This document shows, in pieces, positions 168-10,883 of a DNA stretch of 11,303 nt (positions are counted from its first letter, which is position 1; each line of letters begins with the position of its first letter). The translations under genes and the position numbers were made by a program. The DNA comes from Fibrobacterota bacterium (GTDB taxonomy: Bacteria > Fibrobacterota > Chitinivibrionia > Chitinivibrionales > JANQEN01): contig JAUXBV010000047.1 of assembly GCA_030619215.1 (NCBI GenBank), positions 1 through 11,303 on the forward strand. The letters run 5' to 3'. Under the pieces are notes generated by a model. The model did not search any database, was not told the DNA's origin, and worked only from the letters and a program-made list of their open reading frames with translations.

Positions 168-1511
168 TTAATACGGAAAACCCATACCCGCAAGTTCATC
201 CTTGATTTTCATCAGGCTTGCTTCATATTCGGGTTTCGGTTTAACGGTTTCAATATCATATACTTCAGGGAACGGTACTGCATCCATACTATTCATGTCT
301 TTTTTCATCTCATCAACCCGTGCAAGAATTTTCAGTGACAGTTCACTGGCTTTGGCTTTGTCCATATTGACAGTTACAGCCATCATTTCACCAATCAGGC
401 GGGCTTCAAGGCCTGTATGTCCCGAAATCCATGAATATGCCAGACCACTGTTTGAATAAGCTGCGGCAACAGCTGCTGCCTGCATCAATGCAACCGGTGT
501 CCGCCATGGACTTCCACATACACAGCTACCGGTGGGAACTTTAATATTTCGTTCTGAAGCTCTTGCAGCCGCACTGAATGCCCAGATTGACTGTGGTGTT
601 CCCCAGCTTCCGTCCAAATGATTCGGAAAGAAACTACATGTCGGGCCCTGGCCGTAGCTTAATTGTGCCAAGCCATTTGCTACCATGGTAACAGCAACAT
701 CAGCAGCATTTCTGCAAAGACCGCCGATCAAAGACATGGAACTCTGCCACGGATTAATACCGCGATCACGACAGAACTGTGCTTTGAGTAAGGCTGCCCA
801 GTCAATTTTCATCTCAGGCATAATATGAACACCGATCTGAGTATTATAGGGTTCTCTCATTCCCGGTTGAAGTGTTGCAAAAATAGAACTCATTTCGCTT
901 GCTGTAGCAAGCAATCCCAGATTCAATCCCGGGCGTCCTACTTTTTCCAGTACTTCGCGAATTCTTTCCTGTTCCCATCTAACCACATGAAATTCACTTA
1001 AGGTTCCGGCTTTACAAGCAATACCGTCTAAAGAAGCAAGACCCGGCAGAATACCCATACCGGCAACACTTTCTTCCTGTGCGAATGATTGAACATAAGC
1101 GGAAAACCATTCCTGCTGAGCTACTGCAGGCGGTCCGCTGTTGAGTATCGGCGCTTTCGTATCATCACAGGTTCGGTATGGAATCTCCATCACATCAGCA
1201 CCTTTTCCAAAAACAGCTGTTCTTGGATCTGCCTTATAGGCATTAGCGACTTCAAGAACTTCTTCTTTTGAAAACTCGATGACACGCTGTGTGTCCATCT
1301 GGTAAACACCCAGTTCAGAAAGCAGTGCAACACCGGCATTAAATACAGCATCAGCTGTTTTATCATCAACCACGAGTTCTTCAAAATTGCTTTCTATTTC
1401 ATATTTTGCCACAATTTCACGAATCTTCATGGCCAATTCCATATCAAAATCATCCGGCTTCTTCACAGGACCGTTTAATGCGCGCTCCTGAAAATCCATT
1501 AATGTAATCAT
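168..1511 (-). CDS. MtmB-family corrinoid methyltransferase lacking pyrrolysine
   Basis: A 447-residue protein that I recognise as a homologue of the monomethylamine methyltransferase MtmB (about 458 residues). Matching segments are GVYQMDTQRVIEF, APILNSGPPA, VGRPGLNLG, TGLEARLIGE, and the C-terminal YDIETVKPKPEYE...ELAGMGFPY. In archaeal MtmB the segment AGRPGMGV is followed by pyrrolysine 202. Here the aligned residue is Gly199 (codon GGA at 917-915) and there is no in-frame TAG, so it is a natural non-Pyl member, not a readthrough gene. It should move a methyl group between an organic substrate and the corrinoid protein upstream; without Pyl the substrate is probably not monomethylamine. 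It starts at ATG 1511, with GGGAG 7 nt upstream, and is the last gene before the terminator. MtmB-like proteins in anaerobic estrogen methylation (EmtA) are a possible relative, recalled from memory. Confidence 0.85.
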   Translation of the reverse strand: MITLMDFQERALNGPVKKPDDFDMELAMKIREIVAKYEIESNFEELVVDDKTADAVFNAGVALLSELGVYQMDTQRVIEFSKEEVLEVANAYKADPRTAVFGKGADVMEIPYRTCDDTKAPILNSGPPAVAQQEWFSAYVQSFAQEESVAGMGILPGLASLDGIACKAGTLSEFHVVRWEQERIREVLEKVGRPGLNLGLLATASEMSSIFATLQPGMREPYNTQIGVHIMPEMKIDWAALLKAQFCRDRGINPWQSSMSLIGGLCRNAADVAVTMVANGLAQLSYGQGPTCSFFPNHLDGSWGTPQSIWAFSAAARASERNIKVPTGSCVCGSPWRTPVALMQAAAVAAAYSNSGLAYSWISGHTGLEARLIGEMMAVTVNMDKAKASELSLKILARVDEMKKDMNSMDAVPFPEVYDIETVKPKPEYEASLMKIKDELAGMGFPY

Positions 1512-1531
1512 TATTCATCTCCCTTTAATCG

Positions 1532-1549
1532 TTTTCCACATGTGGAAAA
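1532..1549. promoter_or_regulatory. 18-bp perfect palindrome upstream of the methyltransferase gene
   Basis: TTTTCCACATGTGGAAAA is self-complementary over 18 bp. It lies in the 65-nt gap between the SRPBCC gene and the MtmB-family gene, about 20 nt before the ATG. A symmetric site of this length could be an operator for a dimeric regulator or form a small RNA hairpin. No second copy was noticed in the window, including at the main promoter. Confidence 0.45.
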
Positions 1550-1576
1550 ACAATATTCAAATAAAAAGATAAGAAA

Positions 1577-2026
1577 TTATCCCTGTAATTCTTCGATTCT
1601 TGCTTTTATCTTTTCCGCCATTTCTTTTGCCACAGGTTTAAGCATAGGCCCAAGCAAAACATTAACAACAGGCCCGATCATTCCTCCGGCATTTATTTCC
1701 AGTTTAAAGATAAGCTCTGTTTCACTATCAGACTCTGAAGTAGCTATAAACGTTCCGCCGCCGGTAGCTTTTTCATTGATGCCGTCAAGCTCAAATTCAA
1801 CTCTTTTGGCTTCATCATCCCAGTTTGTAATGGTAACTTTCATTTTTACGGTACGTGAAAGAACACCCACATCTCCCTTAAGGGTCCAGACAGATTCTTT
1901 GTCATTAAGCTCTTCATGCTCTTCATAACCTTTAAGAAAGGGCGCCCATTTTTCTATTACACTGACAAATCCCCATACAGGTTCCATCGGCGCTTTAACT
2001 ATACATTTATATTCTACTACAGGCAT
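1577..2026 (-). CDS. SRPBCC / CoxG-like ligand-binding protein
   Basis: A 149-residue protein of the SRPBCC (START/Bet v1-like) superfamily, closest in feel to CoxG (CO dehydrogenase subunit G-like). It opens with the typical EYKCIVKAPMEPVWGFVSVIEKWAPFL strand-helix start, has a central beta region, and ends in a long amphipathic C-terminal helix (MLKPVAKEMAEKIKARIEEL). The fold makes a deep hydrophobic pocket; members bind lipids, steroids or aromatic compounds, and some are cyclases. It begins 10 nt after the flavoprotein stop with AGGAGG, showing tight coupling. It could present a hydrophobic substrate to the flavoprotein or methyltransferase. No catalytic residues can be assigned. Confidence 0.85.
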   Translation of the reverse strand: MPVVEYKCIVKAPMEPVWGFVSVIEKWAPFLKGYEEHEELNDKESVWTLKGDVGVLSRTVKMKVTITNWDDEAKRVEFELDGINEKATGGGTFIATSESDSETELIFKLEINAGGMIGPVVNVLLGPMLKPVAKEMAEKIKARIEELQG

Positions 2027-2035
2027 ATTCTCCTC

Positions 2036-3682
2036 CTATTGTTTTGCCGCGTGTATACCGGCAAGATAACCGAAAACCATGCCCGAACCAATTGTTGCGC
2101 CACCGCCGAAATAACTGCCACCGGCAACACTGGCCATTGCATTTCCAGCCGCATAAAGTCCTGTAATCGGTTTGCCATGCGCATCAATTACCTGGCCATC
2201 TAATGTAGTCTTAGGACCACCCTTGGTTCCCAGAGAACCCAGCAGCATTTCGCAAGCGTAGAAAACAGGTTTTTCAAGTGTACCCAGACAGGCGCACGGT
2301 TCATTCCTGTCATCTCCCCAGTAAAGGTCATATTCACTGTCACCCCTGGCAAAATCAGGATCTTTATTATCTTTTACATATCCGTTAAACTTTTCAACTG
2401 TTTCCTTTAAACCGGCAGCATCAATATTAATTTTTTCAGCCAGCTCTTCAAGTGAATCAGCCTGTACGAGCCATTCCGGAACATCTTCACCCGGCATCGC
2501 TGTGAGGAACGGATATTTATCTTTGTACTGCTGATCAAAAATTGCCCAGGCCGGCAGATTTTTAAATTTAAGCGTATTTTCATCTACTTCCCAAAATGGT
2601 TTGAACATGTCATTATATGCTGCTGATTCGTTTACAAAACGTTTGCCTTTGGGATTAACGATAATACAGTGAGGCATTGATCGTTCATAAATAATGCCAC
2701 GGTTTAACTGGATGCCTTCTGATTCTTCGCCTGGAATAATCGCAGATATCCATCCCCATTGTTCACTCATATTGCCGAGTGCAGCACCGGCGGACATTCC
2801 CATTTTCAGGGCATCGCCTTCATTAATCGGCGGTGAGCATGGATGGGTAATCGGGCCGGGCAGGAAGTCGGTTTTTAATTCTTCGTTCCATTCAAAACCA
2901 CCACAGGCAAGAATAACGCCTTTACTGGCGCCGACACAAATGTCTTTTCCATCCTGCTGAGCAACAACACCGATAACCTTGCCATCTTCCATAACAACAT
3001 CAATGGCCCTTGTATTCAGCACAATCTCTATCTTTCTGTCCAGACAGGCTTTGTATAAGGGCGCTGTAACGCCACCGCCCCAACAGGTAATACCATTGGC
3101 AAGCCGCTCACCCATCTTCTCCCAGGGCACCTTCTCCGGTGTGCAGGTGGGTTTCCACTGACGGCTTTCACTAAATGTCATTGGCATGGACATGGTCGGG
3201 CTGACCCTGAGATTTTCTTTTGCGTCACCTAGTTCATTTGTGTCGTAAAGCAGCGGTCCCAGTGTGCGTGATTCATTGCCCTGGTGTGCGCCTTCAAATT
3301 CCGGATGATAGTCGGAGAGCTCGGTAATTTCAAATTTAATCGGTGTATTATCAACCATATACTGAATCATCTCAGGAACAACATCAAGATACTTTTCAAT
3401 CAGTTCATCAGAAGATTTGCCGCCGCTGAGGCGTTTACAATATGTCATCGCGGCTTCTTTTGAATCCTTGATTCCTTTCTCTTTCATCAGGTGATTATTC
3501 GGTACCCAGACACCACCACCGGATACGGCTGTGGTTCCGCCGACTTTCGCGGTTCGTTCAAGTACCATTACTTTTGCGCCATTGTCATGAGCCAGAATGG
3601 CGGCGGGCAGTCCCGCACAACCGGTACCTAATACAAGTACTTCTGTTTCCAAATCCCATTTTCCAGGTTTTTTTATTGCCAT
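2036..3682 (-). CDS. FAD-dependent dehydrogenase/reductase, 3-ketosteroid-1-dehydrogenase (KstD)-like
   Basis: A 548-residue flavoprotein of the fumarate reductase/succinate dehydrogenase flavoprotein superfamily. The FAD dinucleotide motif G19-T-G-C-A-G24 is followed by LERTAKVGGTTAVSGGG. The C-terminal signature GLYAAGNAMASVAGGSYFGGGATIG includes Tyr524 and Gly528, with the same 4-residue spacing as Tyr487/Gly491 of KstD1, where they act on the 3-keto group. This suggests it introduces or reduces a double bond next to a ketone on a cyclic substrate. Length is typical (KstD about 510-570). No signal peptide is seen, so it is cytoplasmic. Its TAG stop overlaps the ribosome-binding site of the next gene, so the two are translationally coupled. 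Related reductases with other substrates cannot be excluded. Confidence 0.85.
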   Translation of the reverse strand: MAIKKPGKWDLETEVLVLGTGCAGLPAAILAHDNGAKVMVLERTAKVGGTTAVSGGGVWVPNNHLMKEKGIKDSKEAAMTYCKRLSGGKSSDELIEKYLDVVPEMIQYMVDNTPIKFEITELSDYHPEFEGAHQGNESRTLGPLLYDTNELGDAKENLRVSPTMSMPMTFSESRQWKPTCTPEKVPWEKMGERLANGITCWGGGVTAPLYKACLDRKIEIVLNTRAIDVVMEDGKVIGVVAQQDGKDICVGASKGVILACGGFEWNEELKTDFLPGPITHPCSPPINEGDALKMGMSAGAALGNMSEQWGWISAIIPGEESEGIQLNRGIIYERSMPHCIIVNPKGKRFVNESAAYNDMFKPFWEVDENTLKFKNLPAWAIFDQQYKDKYPFLTAMPGEDVPEWLVQADSLEELAEKINIDAAGLKETVEKFNGYVKDNKDPDFARGDSEYDLYWGDDRNEPCACLGTLEKPVFYACEMLLGSLGTKGGPKTTLDGQVIDAHGKPITGLYAAGNAMASVAGGSYFGGGATIGSGMVFGYLAGIHAAKQ

Positions 3683-3806
3683 GGTCTCCTCCTATAATTT
3701 TTTTTATAATTTAATACAAAACGAAATCCCATATATTCATCAGCGATATGTTCAGCCGAATATTTCTCCATTCAAAAGCGGTTAAACGCCCAATCAGAAA
3801 TAACAG

Positions 3807-4634
3807 CTATTTTTTTACATCAAGTTTCCCTTCCCGAAAAGCGGTAATATACTGCATACTCCACTCGTCCTGTCCGATCAGGGCGGCACATGCTTTAAAT
3901 ATAGCCATCAAGCCCTGATCACGAACATTTACTAAAAACGCATCCATACCAAGGGCAACAATCATGGGAATAAATGTGTGATTGATAAGCTTTCGTAACG
4001 GCATGCCGTAACTGACATTGCTGGCGCCGCAAAACTTCCGGGCATCCGGCAGGTTCTTGTCCATCATCCGCATTAAATTAAGAAATGCCACTCCGGCAAC
4101 CGTATCTGCTGAAATAGTCATCACCAGCGGATCAATATAAAGATTCTCAGGCTTTAATCCTGCCGTTGTTGTCTTTTCATATAAACTTTCAGCCACCCGC
4201 AATCTTTTTTCAGCGCTGTTGGATATACCTTCCTTATCCATACACATGGCCACAAGACCGCAATCATTTTCCACAGCAAGGGACAGCAAATCGTCATGCC
4301 CTTCACCCCATTCACCGGTAATGGAACTGATAATCGGTGTGGCGCCTTTATAAACCTTTAAAGCCGTCTGAATCGCTTCCGGTGAAGAACTATCGAGAAC
4401 AAGGGGCAAATCCGTAACAGACTGCACCAGTTCCACCATCCAGGCCAGATCTTCAACTTCGTTTTGGCCGCTCACGGCCGCATTTAAATCCAGCATATGG
4501 GCACCGCATTCTTCCTGTCGTTTTGCAAGCGCTTTTATTGCTTCGTCATCGTGATTGGTAACCGCTTCTTTAATCTTTGGAATACTGGCATTAAGTGATT
4601 CACCGATATAAAGTAACTTATGTTTATATTGCAA
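3807..4634 (-). CDS. Pterin-dependent methyltransferase (methyltetrahydrofolate:corrinoid type)
   Basis: A 275-residue TIM-barrel protein of the pterin-binding (DHPS-like) family, like AcsE, MtgA and the MetH folate domain. Seen in order, numbered from the TTG at 4634: YIGESLN near the N-terminus, MLDLN (Asp49, Asn51), LVLDSSSPEA (Asp81), YIDPLV (Asp168) and CGASNVSYGMP (Asn206). These match the Asp, Asp and Asn that hold and protonate the pterin in AcsE-type enzymes. It should move a methyl group between the corrinoid protein and tetrahydrofolate in the cytoplasm. The start is TTG at 4634, with GGAGG (4644-4640) 5 nt upstream. A TTG at 4646 is in frame, but the GGAGG falls inside that extension. 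It is 129 nt from the corrinoid gene; a small hairpin (4666-4683) lies in that gap. Confidence 0.9.
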   Translation of the reverse strand: MQYKHKLLYIGESLNASIPKIKEAVTNHDDEAIKALAKRQEECGAHMLDLNAAVSGQNEVEDLAWMVELVQSVTDLPLVLDSSSPEAIQTALKVYKGATPIISSITGEWGEGHDDLLSLAVENDCGLVAMCMDKEGISNSAEKRLRVAESLYEKTTTAGLKPENLYIDPLVMTISADTVAGVAFLNLMRMMDKNLPDARKFCGASNVSYGMPLRKLINHTFIPMIVALGMDAFLVNVRDQGLMAIFKACAALIGQDEWSMQYITAFREGKLDVKK

Positions 4635-4763
4635 GGTATCCTCCAAAAAACATACATAAAGGTCTACATCGCATAAGCAATGTAAATGTTTGTATTTTTA
4701 CATAAAAACACTAAGCCGACAGCTTGAATACGGTAATGTTTCTTTGAATACGTTCAGCCTGTT

Positions 4764-5399
4764 CTAAGCGTGACCCAAAAGACGATCACAGAGCTTTACC
4801 GCTTCAACAGCATTTTCCGCCTGGCCGTCACATCCCATTGATTCAGCTTTTTCTGCTGAGGTCTCAGCGCCGCCGATGATAACTTTATATTTATCGCGGA
4901 TATTCATGTCGACCAGATATTTTACCACTTCCGCGCAATTCGGTATGGTTGTTACCAGAAAAGCAGACATGCCGATAATATCAGCATTTAATTCCTGTGC
5001 TTTTTCAACAAACTTCATACTGGGCACATTAACGCCGACCACATGGACTTTATACCCTGCAAGCTTTAACTGACTTGCTACCAGGCTGTAACCGATATCA
5101 TGAAGGTCACCTTCAACAGCGCCAAGAATAACCACGCCTTTTGCAGGCCCGGTATTCTCCGGTAAATGCGGTGTAATGATTTCTATACAGGCTTCGCCGA
5201 GTTTACCGGCCATCATTAACTCTGCCAGAAAATATACTTCTTCTTCAAATTTCTTCCCGACTTCCTGCAGACCGGCGATGATACCGCCATTAAGAATTTC
5301 AACAGGATCCATACCTTCATCAAGAGCAGCCTGAACCTGACTCTTTGCGTCTTCTGACTGCAGTTTAACAAATGTCTCTTTAATTTGATTAATATCCAA
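4764..5399 (-). CDS. Corrinoid-binding methyl-carrier protein (MttC/MtbC/MtgC type)
   Basis: A 211-residue corrinoid protein. An N-terminal helical cap domain (about 1-85, VEILNGGIIAGLQEVGKKFE) is followed by a Rossmann-like B12 domain with G97-D-L-H100-D-I-G103 (His100 is the lower cobalt ligand), a MSAFLVTT segment and IIGGAE. It carries the methyl group on cobalt between the substrate methyltransferase and the pterin methyltransferase. I chose the TTG start at 5399 because AGGAGG (5410-5405) sits exactly 5 nt upstream and residue numbering then matches the family. The ATG at 5495 would add 32 unrelated residues and lies inside the hairpin. The stop is TAG. Its likely partners are the downstream pterin methyltransferase and the distal MtmB-family protein. 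Confidence 0.93.
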   Translation of the reverse strand: MDINQIKETFVKLQSEDAKSQVQAALDEGMDPVEILNGGIIAGLQEVGKKFEEEVYFLAELMMAGKLGEACIEIITPHLPENTGPAKGVVILGAVEGDLHDIGYSLVASQLKLAGYKVHVVGVNVPSMKFVEKAQELNADIIGMSAFLVTTIPNCAEVVKYLVDMNIRDKYKVIIGGAETSAEKAESMGCDGQAENAVEAVKLCDRLLGHA

Positions 5400-5458
5400 T
5401 TTCGCCTCCTGAAATTTATGCGATAAAAAAACTAAAACCTGAAAAATAATTTTATTTG

Positions 5459-5495
5459 ATGATAAGGAGCGTGTAGTTAACACACTCCTTATCAT
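5459..5495 (-). terminator. Strong intergenic hairpin (attenuator or processing site)
   Basis: On the transcribed minus strand, arms 5495-5480 and 5474-5459 pair over 16 positions (core TGATAAGGAG...CTCCTTATCA) with one G-U wobble and a 5-nt loop. It lies 23 nt after the thiolase stop. An AT-rich but not purely T tract follows, so termination is possible but partial. It separates the acyl-CoA genes from the methyl-transfer genes, and could lower, or by 3'-end protection uncouple, expression of the two halves. Confidence 0.6.
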
Positions 5496-5517
5496 TTCAA
5501 ATTATAATATCAATAAA

Positions 5518-6663
5518 TTATTTTCTAATAATCAGGCCGTCAGCAGGTCCGCCTGCTCCGGCAGCATACAGAATAATTTCCGCATTATCAATCTGCGACG
5601 TTGATGTGCCGCGCACCTGTCTAACCGCTTCAACAATGCGGTTTGAATCCATAAATCCTTCACCTATTGAACCGCCCGCAGTATTAATCGGAAGTGATTT
5701 GGCTCCACAAAAAGCAGCGCCCTCACCTTTACCGCAGAGACCAAGGGCCTCAGCCTGCATGGGAACCAAAGGCGCAAAGCGATCATCAAGCTGTGCAACA
5801 TTGATATCTTTTGCGGTTATTCCGGCTACCCTGTAAAGCTCTTCGGCCATATTCATGGTTTCAGGAAAGTCTGTCATTTTTTCCTGATTATACCCTGTAA
5901 GGAATTCACCTTCTATAGCCGCACCCTGTGCAGCAGACATGATAACAGCAGGTGTCTGCTGCAAATCTTTTGCCATTTCTGTTCTTGTAACAAGAATGGC
6001 GATACCGGCATCAACTCCCGGCGCACAATCAATATCACGAAGCGGCGCGACCGTCATTTCAGAATTAAGGTATTCATCCATGGTAACCGGTTTATCCGTA
6101 TACAACGCCAGAGGATTTTTCGCGCCATACTCGGAAATGCCTATAATAACGCCTGCCATCTGTTCAGGAGTAATGCCATATTCATGCATATACCGCTGCT
6201 GAAGCATCGCGGCACATCCCTGAGGTGTTGCAAGGCCGTAAGGCTCATAAAAATCAATCCTTAATATACTGATGGAGTCATCAAGCGTTTCCTTGGCAAC
6301 ACGATAATCAGAAGGCGACCTCCTGGTTGTAGTCGCGCCTTTTCTGCTGCGGTAATACACCACATTATTCGCTGTTCCCGATGCAACTGCTGTAACAACA
6401 TTAAGCATGGAACTGGTTCCCCAGTGAGATTCACTTGAATACAGAAGATTATCAATACCCAGTGTTTTTTGAACATAAGAGCAGTCCCAGCCGTCATCAA
6501 TATCTTTCACAAGGCCGTCAATATCCTTCACTTTAATACCCGCGTCATCAGCTGCAAGCTTTATGGCTTCACTGGCAAGAGACCATTCTGTTCGTTCGGT
6601 ACCCTTTGAATATTCGGTAAGACCAATGCCCGCAATAGCGGTCATATCTTTTATACTTGTCAT
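5518..6663 (-). CDS. Thiolase-like protein with diverged active site (pair 2)
   Basis: A 381-residue SCP2/SCPx-type thiolase-fold protein, homologous along its length to the pair-1 protein but with altered catalytic positions. The nucleophile loop reads ESHWGTSS with no Cys. The position of Tyr317 in the paralogue is Asp293 (QLDDRF), and that of Tyr368 is Phe337 (GGSIGEGFMDSN). The fold markers remain (RRxMHEY-type segment as QRYMHEYGI, NPLALYTDKPVT, INTAGG). It starts with ATG after AAAGGAGG, 8 nt away. Possible roles are a second aldolase with different chemistry, a non-catalytic partner that forms a heteromer with the pair-1 thiolase, or a substrate-binding protein. It is the last gene before a strong hairpin. 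Family is confident, activity open. Confidence 0.82.
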   Translation of the reverse strand: MTSIKDMTAIAGIGLTEYSKGTERTEWSLASEAIKLAADDAGIKVKDIDGLVKDIDDGWDCSYVQKTLGIDNLLYSSESHWGTSSMLNVVTAVASGTANNVVYYRSRKGATTTRRSPSDYRVAKETLDDSISILRIDFYEPYGLATPQGCAAMLQQRYMHEYGITPEQMAGVIIGISEYGAKNPLALYTDKPVTMDEYLNSEMTVAPLRDIDCAPGVDAGIAILVTRTEMAKDLQQTPAVIMSAAQGAAIEGEFLTGYNQEKMTDFPETMNMAEELYRVAGITAKDINVAQLDDRFAPLVPMQAEALGLCGKGEGAAFCGAKSLPINTAGGSIGEGFMDSNRIVEAVRQVRGTSTSQIDNAEIILYAAGAGGPADGLIIRK

Positions 6664-6678
6664 CTTGTTAGCCTCCTT

Positions 6679-7110
6679 TTATGCTTCTCTTTTCTTAAAC
6701 TGGTATAAAGTGAGGGAGTCATCAATATCCACAAATGTAATCTCCACAGGCATGCCGATATGAATTTCTTCAGTATCAATATCGTCTGCATTATTTGCCG
6801 TGATTCGAACACCTTCGTCCAGTTCCACTACCATGACAGCATATGGAATTTTCATCCCCGGATATGCCATTTTGTCTGTGGTATAAATAATATAAGAGTG
6901 AACCTCGCCCTTTCCTGAAGCAGGAACAAAGTCCATAGTATCGAGTGTCAGACACTCCGGACACATTGGACGGGGAGGTTGATAGTAGTTCTTACATTTA
7001 TTGCATTGCTGAACAACAAATTTATGATCATTTACTGCGTCCCAGTAAGGTTTGTTGTCTGCGTCTATATAGGGTTTCAGTATTGGAATACCTGGTACAT
7101 ATTCAACCAT
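6679..7110 (-). CDS. DUF35 zinc-ribbon/OB-fold acyl-CoA-associated protein (pair 2)
   Basis: A 143-residue DUF35 protein with the complete zinc ribbon (C36, C39, C50, C53; QPPRPMCPEC) and an OB-fold (about 58-143) containing VPASGKGEVHSY, AYPGMKIPYAV and the end LTLYQFKKREA. It starts 14 nt after the upstream thiolase stop and is followed 15 nt later by the next thiolase gene, so it is translationally linked to both. By order (DUF35 then thiolase) its partner should be the 381-residue thiolase. Its OB-fold resembles the broken copy (shared AYPGxKxPYAV) more than the pair-1 protein, hinting at how the three copies are related. It probably acts as an accessory subunit in a cytoplasmic hetero-oligomer. 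Confidence 0.9.
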   Translation of the reverse strand: MVEYVPGIPILKPYIDADNKPYWDAVNDHKFVVQQCNKCKNYYQPPRPMCPECLTLDTMDFVPASGKGEVHSYIIYTTDKMAYPGMKIPYAVMVVELDEGVRITANNADDIDTEEIHIGMPVEITFVDIDDSLTLYQFKKREA

Positions 7111-7124
7111 TTTCTAACCTCCTT

Positions 7125-8366
7125 TTAGTTCCTTAAAACCATTGCGCTGCTGGGCACGCCCGGGCCTGCTGTTACCATACACAGTTCAGGATCTTTTACC
7201 TGGTTGTATGACTGGCCTCTTAACTGCCGTACACCTTCATTAACAAGATTGTAACCGTGAATATAGGCTTCGGATAGAAGACCGCCGTTTGTATTGGTAG
7301 GCATTTTTCCATCAACTCTGATATTATCTCCGCCTTCTATGAAATTACCTGCATCACCACGTTCGCAGAAATCACACTCTTCAAGGGACATAATTCCACC
7401 AAGGGAGTAAGGATCATAGAGTTCAGCCACATCAATATCCTTACCTTCAACTCCGGCTACCCGATAAGCCTCATGCGCGGCGTACCATGTTTCAAAAAGA
7501 CCGGAAATAACAGGCCTGTTGTATATAGTCTGGATTTCCTGTTCAATCGGCGCACTCTGGCCCGCGCCTAAAATGTAGACAGGTTTCTGTTTAAGATCTT
7601 TTGCTCTTTCAGCACTTGTAACGATATGAGCCGCGGCACCATCCGTATCAACACAGCAGTCAAACAAACGGAGAGGCTCAACAATCATTTGAACATTCAT
7701 GTAATCTTCATGGGTCATTGGTTTGTCGTGGAATATGGCCCGTGGATTCTTATTGGCATATTCTCTTAAGACAACCGCCCACCATCCGATCTGTTCATAG
7801 GTAACATTGAATTCATGCATCCATCTGCGGCCCCAACAACCAGCCCAGGACAGAGGCGTACAGAAACCCATGGGGAATGTATATCCGTAATGTGGAGTCG
7901 GCGCTGAAATCATATATTTTGCGTATCCGTCGCCTCTTCCGAATCTATGCCCGGAAGCTTCATTCAAAGCGCGATAGCACACTACATTTTTCGCGACACC
8001 GGTTGCCACAGCGGCCGCTGCATGCAAGGTCACGGCACAGGCTGCGCCTCCGCCAAAACTTACTTCACTCGCAAACCGGAGATTCTTGAGCCCCAGCGTG
8101 CTGACGATAAACGGCATGGCCGTTCTGTCAAGCGTAAAGGTTTCGAGGCCGTCAATGTCTTCCACTTTTATACCAGCATCATCAGCTGCATTTTTTATAG
8201 CTTCACAAGCCATATCAAGCTCATCACGTCCTGAATTCTTGGAATACTCGGTCTCACCAATACCGACAATAGCCGTCTTGTCCTTGATCAGGTTAGCCTG
8301 AGGACTGGGCTTGATATCAGCATCATATTTTCTGTTCATATATTCTTCTAATATATTTCTTCCCAT
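7125..8366 (-). CDS. Thiolase-like (lipid-transfer-protein type) probable retro-aldolase, Ltp2-like active site (pair 1)
   Basis: A 413-residue SCP2/SCPx-type thiolase-fold protein. An N-terminal extension of about 26 residues precedes the conserved IKDKTAIVGIG start; AAGGAGG lies 11 nt before the ATG, so a later start at Met10 is possible. The loop that normally carries the thiolase nucleophile reads SFGGGAAC. The His of the usual SCP2-thiolase HDxF motif is Tyr317 (ELYDPY), and the GHP-type His position is Tyr368 (GGLLSEAYIHG). As I recall, the actinobacterial steroid aldolase Ltp2 uses two Tyr about 50 residues apart (Y294/Y344). The 51-residue gap here matches, which favours retro-aldol cleavage of a 3-hydroxyacyl-CoA over thiolysis. 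It is paired with the DUF35 gene upstream and overlaps functionally with the MaoC hydratases. Family is sure; the aldolase activity is inferred. Confidence 0.85.
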   Translation of the reverse strand: MGRNILEEYMNRKYDADIKPSPQANLIKDKTAIVGIGETEYSKNSGRDELDMACEAIKNAADDAGIKVEDIDGLETFTLDRTAMPFIVSTLGLKNLRFASEVSFGGGAACAVTLHAAAAVATGVAKNVVCYRALNEASGHRFGRGDGYAKYMISAPTPHYGYTFPMGFCTPLSWAGCWGRRWMHEFNVTYEQIGWWAVVLREYANKNPRAIFHDKPMTHEDYMNVQMIVEPLRLFDCCVDTDGAAAHIVTSAERAKDLKQKPVYILGAGQSAPIEQEIQTIYNRPVISGLFETWYAAHEAYRVAGVEGKDIDVAELYDPYSLGGIMSLEECDFCERGDAGNFIEGGDNIRVDGKMPTNTNGGLLSEAYIHGYNLVNEGVRQLRGQSYNQVKDPELCMVTAGPGVPSSAMVLRN

Positions 8367-8422
8367 TTTTTATATTGCCTCCTTAATTATATGCCCGGTT
8401 ATTATCCTTAGCATAATAATGA

Positions 8423-8851
8423 CTAACCTGCTTTTTTAAATTTATAAAGAGTCAGTTCGTCATCAATTTTTTCATATGCGATTTCAACAGGCATACCGAT
8501 TTCAATTTCTTCCGGCTTGACATCAACTGTATTGCTTATCACTCTCGGACCTTCATCAAGCTCCACCAGTATAACTGAATAAGGCGCCTTGAAGGCTTTG
8601 TGGGGTGATTTATTGTATGTAACATAGCTGTATATCTTACCTTTGCCTGATGCCTCCACATATTCCTGTTCTGTTGAATGGCAGGCAGGACACATGGGCC
8701 GCGGTGGATGAAGAATTTTACCGCAGTCTTTACATTTCTGGATAAGAAATTTTTCCTCTTTGACACCTTCCCACAAAGACCCGCTGCTTCTGTATATAAT
8801 CCCCCAGAGTGCCGGACGTGGTATAGGTTTGTCTGTGTACTGTACGGTCAT
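8423..8851 (-). CDS. DUF35 zinc-ribbon/OB-fold acyl-CoA-associated protein (pair 1)
   Basis: A 142-residue DUF35 protein. The N-terminal rubredoxin-like zinc ribbon has four Cys (C40, C43, C54, C57) around the HPPRPMCPAC segment. The OB-fold domain follows (about 62-142), with VEASGKGKIYSY and the closing EIGMPVEIAYEK and LTLYKFKKAG. Such proteins bind thiolase-like partners and form aldolases or thiolases (ChsH2 C-domain with Ltp2; BbsA with BbsB). The thiolase gene follows 56 nt downstream, so these two probably form one complex. An AGGAGG site lies 5 nt before the ATG, and the stop is TAG. It probably contributes the CoA-binding and channel surface rather than chemistry. The exact substrate is unknown. 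Confidence 0.9.
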   Translation of the reverse strand: MTVQYTDKPIPRPALWGIIYRSSGSLWEGVKEEKFLIQKCKDCGKILHPPRPMCPACHSTEQEYVEASGKGKIYSYVTYNKSPHKAFKAPYSVILVELDEGPRVISNTVDVKPEEIEIGMPVEIAYEKIDDELTLYKFKKAG

Positions 8852-8902
8852 TTGTACCTCCTATAATAAGTTATTAAAAATTTTCTATTATCTAAAAAAA
8901 AC

Positions 8903-9232
8903 CTACGCTTTCTTTTTAAACATAGCCAGCGTAAGACCTTCTTCAGCTTCAACAAAAGTGAGCTCAACCGGCATACCGATATAAATATCCTCCGGTTCAA
9001 CATCAACGACATTGCTTAACATGCGTACCTTTTCAACTTCAAGCTCAATCAGCGTTACCGCATACGGCACTTTAATTCCCGGATAGGCGGCTTTGTCATA
9101 TACAAAATTGACCCAACTGTAAACCGATCCATTACCGGGTGACGGCACCCATTCGGATTCCTCTGCAGACAACCGGAATACAGCCAAAGTCATCTTTCCC
9201 GATATTATATTCATGCATATACCGGCGAACAA
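8903..9232 (-). pseudogene. Truncated DUF35 OB-fold protein (zinc ribbon lost)
   Basis: This is the C-terminal OB-fold part of a DUF35 (acyl-CoA-associated) protein. Homology to the two intact DUF35 proteins starts at about 9175 (RLSAEESEWVPSPGNGSVYSW) and continues to the typical LTLAMFKKKA end. The N-terminal rubredoxin-like zinc ribbon (four Cys) is absent. The frame is open up to an ATG at 9232, but its first residues overlap the out-of-frame thiolase and are not DUF35-like. In intact pairs DUF35 docks on its thiolase partner; here both partners are broken at the same joint. Translation could restart internally, but no good ribosome-binding site is seen. Family identity is confident; loss of function is inferred. 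Confidence 0.8.
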
Positions 9233-9704
9233 TCATGCCCATACGCCCGGCATTTTGAACCGGCAGGCTATCGCCATAATGACCGAACGGAATATAAAAA
9301 TCCTGCTGCGTGGCCATGGAAGATGTCATTTCACGATAATAGGTCGGATCTCTGTGTGTTGAAGCATCGGTAATGGTTCTGAAACACATAATGTAATTCG
9401 CCGATCCGCCGGCAGCACCGACAGCCGCGCGAATAACCATTGCGCCGGAAGCGCCGTTTCCCCAGCGGCATCCGCTCCAGAAAGCGATATTGCCGATACC
9501 CATACTCTTTGCGACAAGAATCTCGTCATCATCTGCTTCCTGAATTTTTACGGATCCGTCAATATCTTCAGGTGTCAGTCCTGCGTCATCAAGAGCGGAC
9601 CGTACGGCACGACAGGCCATATCCCTTGTGGTCATCCCGGAATCAAATGAAAACTTGTGTACACCAAGACCGACAATAGCTGCTTTGTCTTTGATGCTTT
9701 CCAT
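9132..9704 (-). pseudogene. Truncated SCP2-type thiolase-like protein (N-terminal half only)
   Basis: The frame begins with ATG at 9704 after a GGGGAG site and encodes the N-terminal half of a thiolase fold. It is clearly paralogous to the two intact thiolases downstream: it shares the IKD..AIVGLG start, the DDAG..PEDIDG segment and the RRYMHEYNI segment. Similarity continues to about residue 180 (VVCR). The frame then runs into unrelated residues and stops at TAA (9132-9134), giving 190 residues against 381 and 413 in the paralogues. All C-terminal active-site elements are missing. Beyond the break the DNA encodes the C-terminal part of a DUF35 protein in another frame. A deletion of roughly 0.8 kb, estimated from the paralogues, explains this. 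The product is probably non-functional; an assembly error is possible. Confidence 0.85.
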
Positions 9705-9913
9705 ATATGAAATATCTCCCCGCCTCTATTCCAAAAAAGCTGTTTGAATAAACAATGAAAGCCGTATCCGTCAAAACTATATAACCACGAACCGGACTCT
9801 CAAAGCGAAATTGCAATATTATACTATTAATATAATATGTTAAGTCGTATTATACCCAAAATGGCATAAGTTTCGTTTGAATAGCAAACAACACTATTCA
9901 ACTCAGCTTTATA
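9705..9913 (-). other. 209-nt AT-rich spacer with two hairpins and possible secondary promoter elements
   Basis: No gene is seen here. Just after the MaoC stop is a perfect inverted repeat (9877-9884 and 9894-9901, TTGAATAG/CTATTCAA, 9-nt loop). Further along is an AT-only repeat (9816-9823 and 9831-9838). Two TATAAT hexamers occur on the minus strand (9854-9849 and 9823-9818), but neither has a convincing -35 box at 16-18 nt. This is the longest spacer inside the operon and lies directly before the damaged thiolase, so it could contain a weak second promoter or rearrangement scar. Confidence 0.35.
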
Positions 9914-10339
9914 TTAATTCGGCAGCGCCATAGTAGCTGTACCCATTGCATGCGGACCGTTTTTTGTCGCAAATGTATATTGAATATCCACCAGACAATT
10001 GCCGCCATCTTCATATTTTTTTACCACATTACCGGTACCGACAAGTGTATCGCCGGGATAGCACGGCATGGCAAGTTTGATATTGATATTTTTTAATTCA
10101 CCTTCCGGACCGCTCCAGTCTGTCAGGTATTTGCCGATAAAACCGCCGGTTGTCAGAATGTTTAAAAATATATCAGGAGTTCCTGCTTCTTTTGCGGCCT
10201 CGTGATCATGATGCACATTCTGGAAATCCCGTGAGGAAATCGCTGTTGAAACAACAGTTGTCCTTGTGATCTCACGGCTTTCTTCAGGGAGCGCATCGCC
10301 TTCATTAACAGAATCCCATTTTATAGATGCATATTCCAT
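9914..10339 (-). CDS. MaoC-family enoyl-CoA hydratase, probable catalytic subunit
   Basis: A 141-residue single hot-dog protein of the MaoC family (R-specific hydratase type). The catalytic D-x4-H motif is seen as D38-F-Q-N-V-H43, followed by the hydrophobic central helix with TTGGFIGKYL. It should add water to a trans-2-enoyl-CoA, giving a 3-hydroxyacyl-CoA that a thiolase-like retro-aldolase could cleave. Its length is typical for stand-alone MaoC subunits such as ChsH1. It follows the FAS1-like gene closely (28 nt), with ribosome-binding site GAGAGGAT upstream of its ATG, so the two are co-translated. A perfect 8-bp inverted repeat starts 12 nt beyond its stop and could be a weak terminator or RNA-stability element. 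The true substrate is unknown. Confidence 0.88.
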   Translation of the reverse strand: MEYASIKWDSVNEGDALPEESREITRTTVVSTAISSRDFQNVHHDHEAAKEAGTPDIFLNILTTGGFIGKYLTDWSGPEGELKNINIKLAMPCYPGDTLVGTGNVVKKYEDGGNCLVDIQYTFATKNGPHAMGTATMALPN

Positions 10340-10367
10340 ATCTAAATCCTCTCTTATCTTCTTTTGT

Positions 10368-10883
10368 TTAAGTATTCAGTTTAAACTTAAAAATCGTAAA
10401 CGGTTGTTTGCAGATAATCTCATCATTCTGATTTCTGTACGTATACTCAACTGTAAGAAAATAGCCCGTACCCAGACCGGTTGTTTTTATCGGAGAAGCC
10501 GTTGTAAATTCAAGCGTATAGCTTATTTTATCACCGGGTTTCATTGGCGTATGATACTCATGCGATGTTGTTGTGGCAACCACATATGGAAAACCGCTTC
10601 CATCCATTAATTCTGTCAAAATTTCCAGTGTGTTAGGCTCTCTTCCATCATGCGGAGGCCATAAACGGGGAACCGTGTATGCCTGAACCATCTGCGGCGG
10701 AGCAATCGTTCCACCATGTTTACTGTTTTTGGCATACTCCTCATCAGTATACAGAGGATTTCCATCCTGCATTGCTTCGCACCAGTGGCGAATCATGGCG
10801 GTGTTCACATCATCATTTGCCTCATAAGGGCCTGTGACCTGAGCAATCATCGACTGAAGCTTATCGTATAATTCATCACTCAT
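10368..10883 (-). CDS. MaoC-type (FAS1-like) dehydratase domain protein, probable non-catalytic hydratase subunit
   Basis: A 171-residue single hot-dog-domain protein of the MaoC_dehydrat_N / FAS1-like dehydratase type. The family signature around the hydratase motif is visible as D40-G-N-P-L-Y45. The catalytic His expected at the end of the D-x4-H motif is Tyr, as is common in this subfamily, so the protein is probably a structural or substrate-binding partner. It is 28 nt upstream of a second MaoC gene that keeps D-x4-H. This recalls the ChsH2 N-domain plus ChsH1 heteromeric enoyl-CoA hydratase of steroid side-chain degradation. Expected role: with its neighbour, hydrates a 2-enoyl-CoA in the cytoplasm. 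First gene of the operon, with a strong ribosome-binding site. Family is confident; the heterodimer is inferred from order and residue complementarity. Confidence 0.85.
   Translation of the reverse strand: MSDELYDKLQSMIAQVTGPYEANDDVNTAMIRHWCEAMQDGNPLYTDEEYAKNSKHGGTIAPPQMVQAYTVPRLWPPHDGREPNTLEILTELMDGSGFPYVVATTTSHEYHTPMKPGDKISYTLEFTTASPIKTTGLGTGYFLTVEYTYRNQNDEIICKQPFTIFKFKLNT

Follow-up and report, generated by a model that had tools for sequence, protein, structure and literature searches.

Organization of the gene cluster

The DNA analyzed here (the window; 11,303 nucleotides from a Fibrobacterota bacterium) is the contig JAUXBV010000047.1 (C305), which belongs to a 3.64-Mb bin (G000) of 579 contigs and 68.6% completeness. 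It carries genes for cobalamin-dependent methyl transfer next to genes resembling those of steroid side-chain degradation and a gene for a KstD-like flavoprotein (Table 1). All annotated genes, in 12 reading frames, lie on the minus strand, and in reading direction they encode a ChsH1/HadA-type hydratase, a MaoC protein, relics of an Ltp and a DUF35 protein, an intact series DUF35-Ltp-DUF35-Ltp, a corrinoid protein, MeTr, the KstD-like flavoprotein, a SRPBCC protein and an EmtA-family methyltransferase. From the common strand and the short gaps we infer a single operon at 168-10883. The gene classes named for this region in an earlier note (hydratases, aldolases, KstD-like and SRPBCC proteins, methyl-transfer genes) are all present there by Pfam, NCBIfam and BLAST, and Pfam matches above the curated cut-off were obtained for every scanned protein of the window, with the 190-aa Ltp fragment as the sole exception.

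Table 1. Genes and gene relics of the window, in reading direction.
Feature	Coordinates	Strand	Evidence
ChsH1/HadA-type hydratase, 171 aa, first gene	10368..10883	-	Pfam FAS1_DH_region 69.8 bits; 84% identical in G041
MaoC hydratase, 141 aa, probable partner of 10368-10883	9914..10339	-	Pfam MaoC 35.2 bits (cut-off 27); 79% identical in G041
Relic, N-terminal half of Ltp-type aldolase, 190 aa	9132..9704	-	BLAST; no Pfam match
Relic, DUF35 C-terminal OB fold, in another frame, overlaps the Ltp fragment	8903..9232	-	Pfam OB_ChsH2_C 57.5 bits
DUF35 / ChsH2 C-terminal-type aldolase partner, Cys4 zinc ribbon	8423..8851	-	PDB 6ok1_B, E 2.4e-32
Ltp2-type retro-aldolase	7125..8366	-	NCBIfam PRK07855 472.6 bits (cut-off 469); PDB 6ok1_A 354 bits
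Second DUF35, Cys4 zinc ribbon	6679..7110	-	Pfam OB_ChsH2_C and zf-ChsH2; Cys spacing
Second Ltp-type protein, catalytic Tyr replaced	5518..6663	-	6ok1_A alignment; PRK07855 332 bits (cut-off 469)
Corrinoid protein, putative EmtB/AbeB role	4764..5495	-	Pfam B12-binding and B12-binding_2; DLHDIG at 130
Methyl-THF:corrinoid methyltransferase MeTr, second methyl-transfer step	3807..4646	-	NCBIfam PRK07535 280.9 bits (cut-off 259); PDB 4o0q, 2yci and others
KstD-like flavoprotein, putative 3-ketosteroid Delta1-dehydrogenase	2036..3682	-	Best PDB match 7p18; aligned residues
SRPBCC/CoxG-type hydrophobic-ligand protein	1577..2026	-	Pfam COXG and Polyketide_cyc2
EmtA-family (MtmB-like) cobalamin methyltransferase without pyrrolysine	168..1511	-	Pfam MtmB 149.8 bits; 53% identity to Denitratisoma DHT3 B9N43_10325

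Putative enzymes for the side chain and ring A

The hydratases and aldolases resemble the ChsH1-ChsH2 hydratase (PDB 4w78, 4wnb) and the Ltp2-ChsH2 aldolase (6ok1) of actinobacterial cholesterol side-chain degradation. The latter is the best PDB match of the Ltp protein at 7125-8366 and the DUF35 protein at 8423-8851, and at E 1e-3 the hydratase at 10368-10883 matched just two PDB entries, chains of 4w78 and 4wnb. The adjacent MaoC protein scored 45.3 of 203 bits on the HadB model, under the cut-off. In the Ltp protein at 7125-8366 the catalytic pair of TcLtp2 (Y294 and Y344; residue roles from the passages available of PMC12329534) is kept as Y317 and Y368, and both intact DUF35 proteins have a Cys4 zinc ribbon (C-x2-C-x10-C-x2-C at residues 40-57 in the one at 8423-8851). 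In contrast to the actinobacterial complexes, DUF35 and MaoC are separate proteins in the window, the motif of the first Ltp protein reads YDPY instead of YDHF, and the Ltp protein at 5518-6663 has D293 and F337 in place of the tyrosine pair in the alignment with 6ok1_A; this second Ltp protein may be a non-catalytic partner.

Whereas two Ltp/DUF35 pairs are intact, the third set of aldolase genes counted in the earlier note has decayed to overlapping pieces, an Ltp N-terminal and a DUF35 C-terminal one. The former is 50% identical to residues 1-175 of a 387-aa Ltp protein of locus L011, after which similarity is lost, and the latter, without a zinc ribbon, is 57% identical to a DUF35 protein of L011. 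At that place the operon of Desulfobacteraceae bacterium CSMAG_2842 (G041, see below) has no counterpart of the decayed pair (8903-9704).

The best PDB match of the flavoprotein is a 3-oxosteroid 1-dehydrogenase (7p18). Its residues Y125, Y356, Y524 and G528 align with identical residues of KstD1 at Y119, Y318, Y487 and G491, which we take to be the catalytic positions in KstD1 numbering. The protein differs from the characterized 3-ketosteroid Delta1-dehydrogenases (7p18, 4c3x) in falling below the NCBIfam equivalog cut-off, and it is therefore called KstD-like throughout.

Methyl-transfer genes

The methyltransferase belongs to the Pfam family of the monomethylamine methyltransferase MtmB (PDB 1l2q), yet no NCBIfam model matches it at E 1e-3. 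It differs from MtmB in its distant sequence and in lacking pyrrolysine: the pyrrolysine column of MtmB is a gap, and the reading frame has no internal stop, so that there is no in-frame TAG. Four distant MtmB-like genes in other loci (L024, L156, L159 and L161) each contain one in-frame TAG and perhaps encode pyrrolysine.

The anaerobic estrogen system EmtABCD, to which the earlier note referred, does include an MtmB-like protein: in the passages available of Jacoby et al. (2020; PMC7448270), EmtA of the Denitratisoma EmtABCD system is described as an MtmB relative without pyrrolysine. Because of this description, the Denitratisoma sp. DHT3 protein B9N43_10325 (P0106), to which the window protein is 53% identical, is taken to be EmtA by elimination. 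The window resembles the Denitratisoma system in such a methyltransferase and in the corrinoid protein. According to the same passages, methylation in D. oestradiolicum is driven by SAM and extracts demethylate 1-dehydrotestosterone, and Denitratisoma has SAM-recycling genes nearby; the window has MeTr instead, and no SAM-recycling genes (MetK, AHCY, MetH) were found among its 12 annotated reading frames.

The corrinoid protein passes no listed NCBIfam cut-off (e.g., MtgC, 172 of 310), whereas MeTr passes its own. It is 85% identical to its homolog in G041 and 78% to that in a further genome, G720, and the probable start of its reading frame is not 5495 but the TTG at 5399, which corresponds to the start of the G041 homolog. 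The methyl-transfer set had been called complete, which holds for the corrinoid protein, MeTr and the methyltransferase but not for the corrinoid activator: the window lacks one, and the single RACo-type gene of the bin is on C539, adjoining acetyl-CoA synthase (ACS) genes.

Related loci in other genomes

One contig of G041 carries the hydratases, DUF35, Ltp, DUF35, Ltp, corrinoid and SRPBCC genes with 79-92% protein identity to the window, and this side-chain operon matches it at about 77-82% DNA identity. Between the corrinoid and SRPBCC genes lies a KstD remnant (L010, 1488-1607) of 39 residues at 82% identity, followed by a stop and a short frame-shifted end, in the slot where the window carries intact MeTr and KstD genes. 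Intact KstD (75%) and EmtA (74%) genes are present on another G041 contig with an acyl-CoA ligase gene, and a third contig has MeTr (85%) with an EmtA-type gene on either side, adjoining KstD and a partial RACE gene. The G041 contig C23 (L012) encodes a thiolase that scores 540 bits, above the cut-off of 515 of the steroid 3-ketoacyl-CoA thiolase equivalog, in addition to two acyl-CoA dehydrogenases, MaoC proteins, Ltp, DUF35 and FadL.

In G720, a 68.7-kb contig carries corrinoid (78%), KstD (60%), SRPBCC (77%), EmtA (63%), SDR and MeTr (82%) genes, and a few kb away, in divergent orientation, MaoC (70%), HadA (76%), acyl-CoA dehydrogenase and Ltp/DUF35 genes. These Ltp/DUF35 proteins are less like those of the window, with 47-64% identity to other G041 copies, and the SDR proteins match Pfam 3Beta_HSD and Epimerase at similar scores. 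The SRPBCC gene lies between KstD and EmtA in G720 too, and in G041 it follows the KstD relic. The same core set is thus linked to a side-chain cluster in a second genome, and the proposed union of cobalamin methyl transfer, KstD-type and side-chain-type enzymes recurs on one contig in G720, while all of its parts are present in G041, spread over separate contigs. This contradicts one refuting condition set by the earlier note, that the two halves would never be found in the same genome elsewhere.

EmtA-type genes (at least 47% identity) are rare. Only the window's bin has one among 41 relatives, and likewise among 167 genomes of the phylum (none in the other 40 and the other 166 searched); elsewhere they were found in G041, G168 and G208 among 395 genomes and in G041 and G720 among 389. 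G041 and G720 have four copies each, every one near a KstD-type gene, and G041 has a truncated fifth. Overall, 11/11 EmtA-type copies, which come from five genomes and are not independent, have a KstD-type gene at a distance of no more than 2.4 kb, compared to 0/30 distant MtmB-like loci. The KstD-type match has at least 34% identity for 10 of the 11 copies and only 24% for L017. The 30 control loci comprise 13 of 57 listed matches with at most 31% identity (mostly the best-scoring) and all 17 distant matches of another genome set; contig ends truncate several of them, and for one (L062) the EmtA hit was lost at the threshold applied in the final count. A simple rule is weakened by intermediate copies (41-43% identity; G623, G710 and G727), one of which has no KstD hit and two of which have 25% hits at 5-8 kb.

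These intermediate relatives (L188, L189 and L190) lie beside a corrinoid protein, an OYE-type reductase, SDRs and, judged by eye, a molybdenum-hydroxylase-like gene, and they may belong to a different corrinoid system that acts on a cyclic compound.

Linkage to a simple methylamine/betaine pathway, which the earlier note had named as a refuting observation, was not seen: no such gene set was recognized beside the 11 EmtA-type copies, with neighbors judged by BLAST and eye and by HMMs for some only. A methylamine/betaine pathway was set aside in view of the lack of pyrrolysine, the distant sequences and the absence of a KstD neighbor from all 30 distant loci.

Host and regulatory features of the contig

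The tetranucleotide profile of the window correlates with that of its bin at 0.846, below the 0.884-0.949 of nine other bin contigs that were sampled and measure 8 kb or more; the spread is wider among shorter contigs of the bin. The correlation is 0.840 with G041 and 0.862 with G720. The L2 protein of G001, a family relative of the bin used in place of the bin's own L2, which was not found, shares 57.7% identity with its G041 counterpart, yet the operon DNA of window and G041 is about 77-82% identical. As the contig is atypical for its bin, its host is uncertain, and mis-binning and recent transfer are both possible.

Promoter-like sites are not enriched in the window (21, against a mean of 25.6 in shuffled sequences). 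Terminator-like sites number 18, against 9.8 (standard deviation 3.5) in shuffles, and many lie within genes. Searches of the window for tRNA and Rfam families found none; a cobalamin riboswitch was rejected, as no Rfam match exceeded the threshold.

A putative pathway for demethylative aromatization

From its gene content, family assignments and conserved catalytic residues, the recurrence of the core set and the EmtA-KstD linkage, the cluster is most readily explained as an anaerobic steroid-catabolic one, combining side-chain removal with a KstD-prepared, demethylative aromatization of ring A from which the methyl group passes to folate; we assign this interpretation a probability of about 0.58. 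The MaoC/ChsH1-type hydratases and the Ltp2-DUF35 aldolase would cleave off what is left of the C17 side chain at the end of its degradation, and the KstD-like flavoprotein would introduce the 1,4-dien-3-one structure. The EmtA-family methyltransferase would then transfer the angular C19 methyl group from C10 to Co(I) of the corrinoid protein, leaving ring A phenolic, as in estrogens, and MeTr would pass the methyl group to tetrahydrofolate, from where it could be oxidized or assimilated through the Wood-Ljungdahl pathway. A carrier function for the hydrophobic substrate might fall to the SRPBCC protein. Removal of the methyl group to folate is the favored direction because MeTr is part of the operon and the bin has ACS and RACo genes; the demethylation by D. 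oestradiolicum extracts, and the need for SAM in the opposite reaction, point the same way.

The mechanism is plausible, as the earlier note had argued for removal of an angular methyl group to methyl-THF, but it is not a novelty. In Phosphitispora sp. TUW77, AbeABC (anaerobic bacterial estrogenesis; Wang et al., 2025) are said to strip testosterone of its C19 methyl group, which then enters the Wood-Ljungdahl pathway, and homologs have been reported in uncultivated marine-sediment bacteria, according to the passages available of a review (PMC12507874). AbeABC resemble the present system as a cobalamin methyltransferase system described as removing the C19 methyl. They differ in that those passages do not speak of a shared cluster with KstD and side-chain genes. 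The ring reaction is already known from another bacterium, and what is new is that both gene sets are found together. The literature listed in our search does not report a linkage of EmtA-type, KstD and side-chain genes; Wang 2020 and 2025 lie outside that search and may contain it.

Several results weigh against the proposed pathway. The KstD-like protein reaches the cut-off of none of the 25 listed NCBIfam models (of 60 matched), the best giving 437 of 789 bits (equivalog), and a 4-oxocyclohexanecarboxylate 2-dehydrogenase model scores nearly the same, 429 bits. No corrinoid activator of the RACE type, as near the Denitratisoma cluster, was found among the window proteins by Pfam and NCBIfam. 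The EmtA gene of G041 lies outside its side-chain operon. B9N43_10325, itself identified by elimination, is only 71% identical to its D. oestradiolicum homolog. IpdAB-type genes for rings C and D did not appear either, with no PF01144 match in G000 and the one scanned G041 pair being an ordinary 3-oxoacid CoA-transferase; IpdAB was consequently dropped as a marker for full ring degradation.

The phylogeny of the methyltransferase belongs to these points as well. In a quick tree of 161 rows the group of the window and the Denitratisoma group are joined (95), whereas in a careful tree of 52 selected rows the window's group (98/96) joins a Chloroflexi-type group (98/96); the data do not reject (p-AU 0.139) a constraint placing it with Denitratisoma. 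A long-branch outgroup is a likely cause of the disagreement between the trees. Placement by tree alone was dropped, and since the trees do not settle closeness to EmtA, function is argued here from the neighbors and the enzymes. Five alignment columns (M108, G151, N197, R337 and H365), with thresholds chosen after the alignment had been inspected, are common to the 34 rows of the window's group and the 61 of the Denitratisoma group and scarce in the 52 of the Chloroflexi-type group. H365, for example, is found in 33/34, 54/61 and 0/52 rows, respectively, while a third small group has only R337 and H365. We regard these columns as a lead, not a test.

Alternative explanations

The same chemistry might act on another scaffold, such as hopanoids, other triterpenoids or methylated cyclic acids, with a non-steroid cyclic dienone being demethylated. 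The breadth of the EmtA family, with many unnamed metagenome members besides the Chloroflexi group, and the score of the KstD-like protein on the cyclohexane-acid dehydrogenase model fit this idea, and G041 and G720, each with four EmtA-type genes, have more of them than a single ring methyl would call for. Ltp2/ChsH2/ChsH1-type genes and the G041 steroid thiolase nevertheless represent steroid side-chain enzymes in characterized relatives, and we consider another scaffold unlikely, though less so than the other alternatives.

It is decidedly less probable that the system runs in the forward direction and methylates a phenolic steroid, converting an estrogen to an androgen before degradation of the ring and the side chain. 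The closest named characterized relative, taken as EmtA, works that way, and in extracts the first half-reaction can run both ways. The forward transfer of a methyl group onto ring A is endergonic, however (both in the passages available of Jacoby et al.; PMC7448270), MeTr and the ACS genes of the bin stand in place of SAM recycling, and estrogens have no C17 side chain, so that the side-chain genes would be unneeded.

A chimeric assembly, which would make the linkage an artifact, is very improbable. The tetranucleotide profile, the rarity of EmtA among relatives and the relic gene pair could be read in this way, but the composition result points to mis-binning or transfer of the contig rather than an internal chimera; moreover, the core order recurs on the long G720 contig, and the closely matching G041 operon has its KstD relic in the same slot. 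Finally, it is hardly to be expected that the methyltransferase acts on monomethylamine or another small molecule and neighbors lipid genes by chance, as the Pfam MtmB match and the source names of its homologs (methylamine--corrinoid methyltransferase) might imply, given the missing pyrrolysine, the approximately 25-32% identity to MtmB-like proteins of other genomes and the contrast in KstD adjacency between EmtA-type and distant loci.

Implications for anoxic sediments

The coupling to side-chain genes and the recurrent EmtA-KstD pairs are the part worth following. One speculative, and in our view doubtful, extension is that sediment sterol degraders use several EmtA-KstD pairs for more than one ring methyl or for differently methylated sterols, with dienone formation and aromatization driving the methyl groups to folate. 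Together with side-chain removal, such multiple pairs would let organisms in anoxic sediment turn membrane sterols into aromatic steroids, among them estrogen-like ones.

If the demethylative pathway proposed for the window is correct, anaerobic estrogen formation would not be limited to a testosterone fermenter but would be part of sterol side-chain degradation in sediment bacteria. Estrogens in anoxic sediment would then have a concrete source, anaerobes could use the angular methyl group as a C1 fuel, and the aromatic steroids of sediments might have a biological start.

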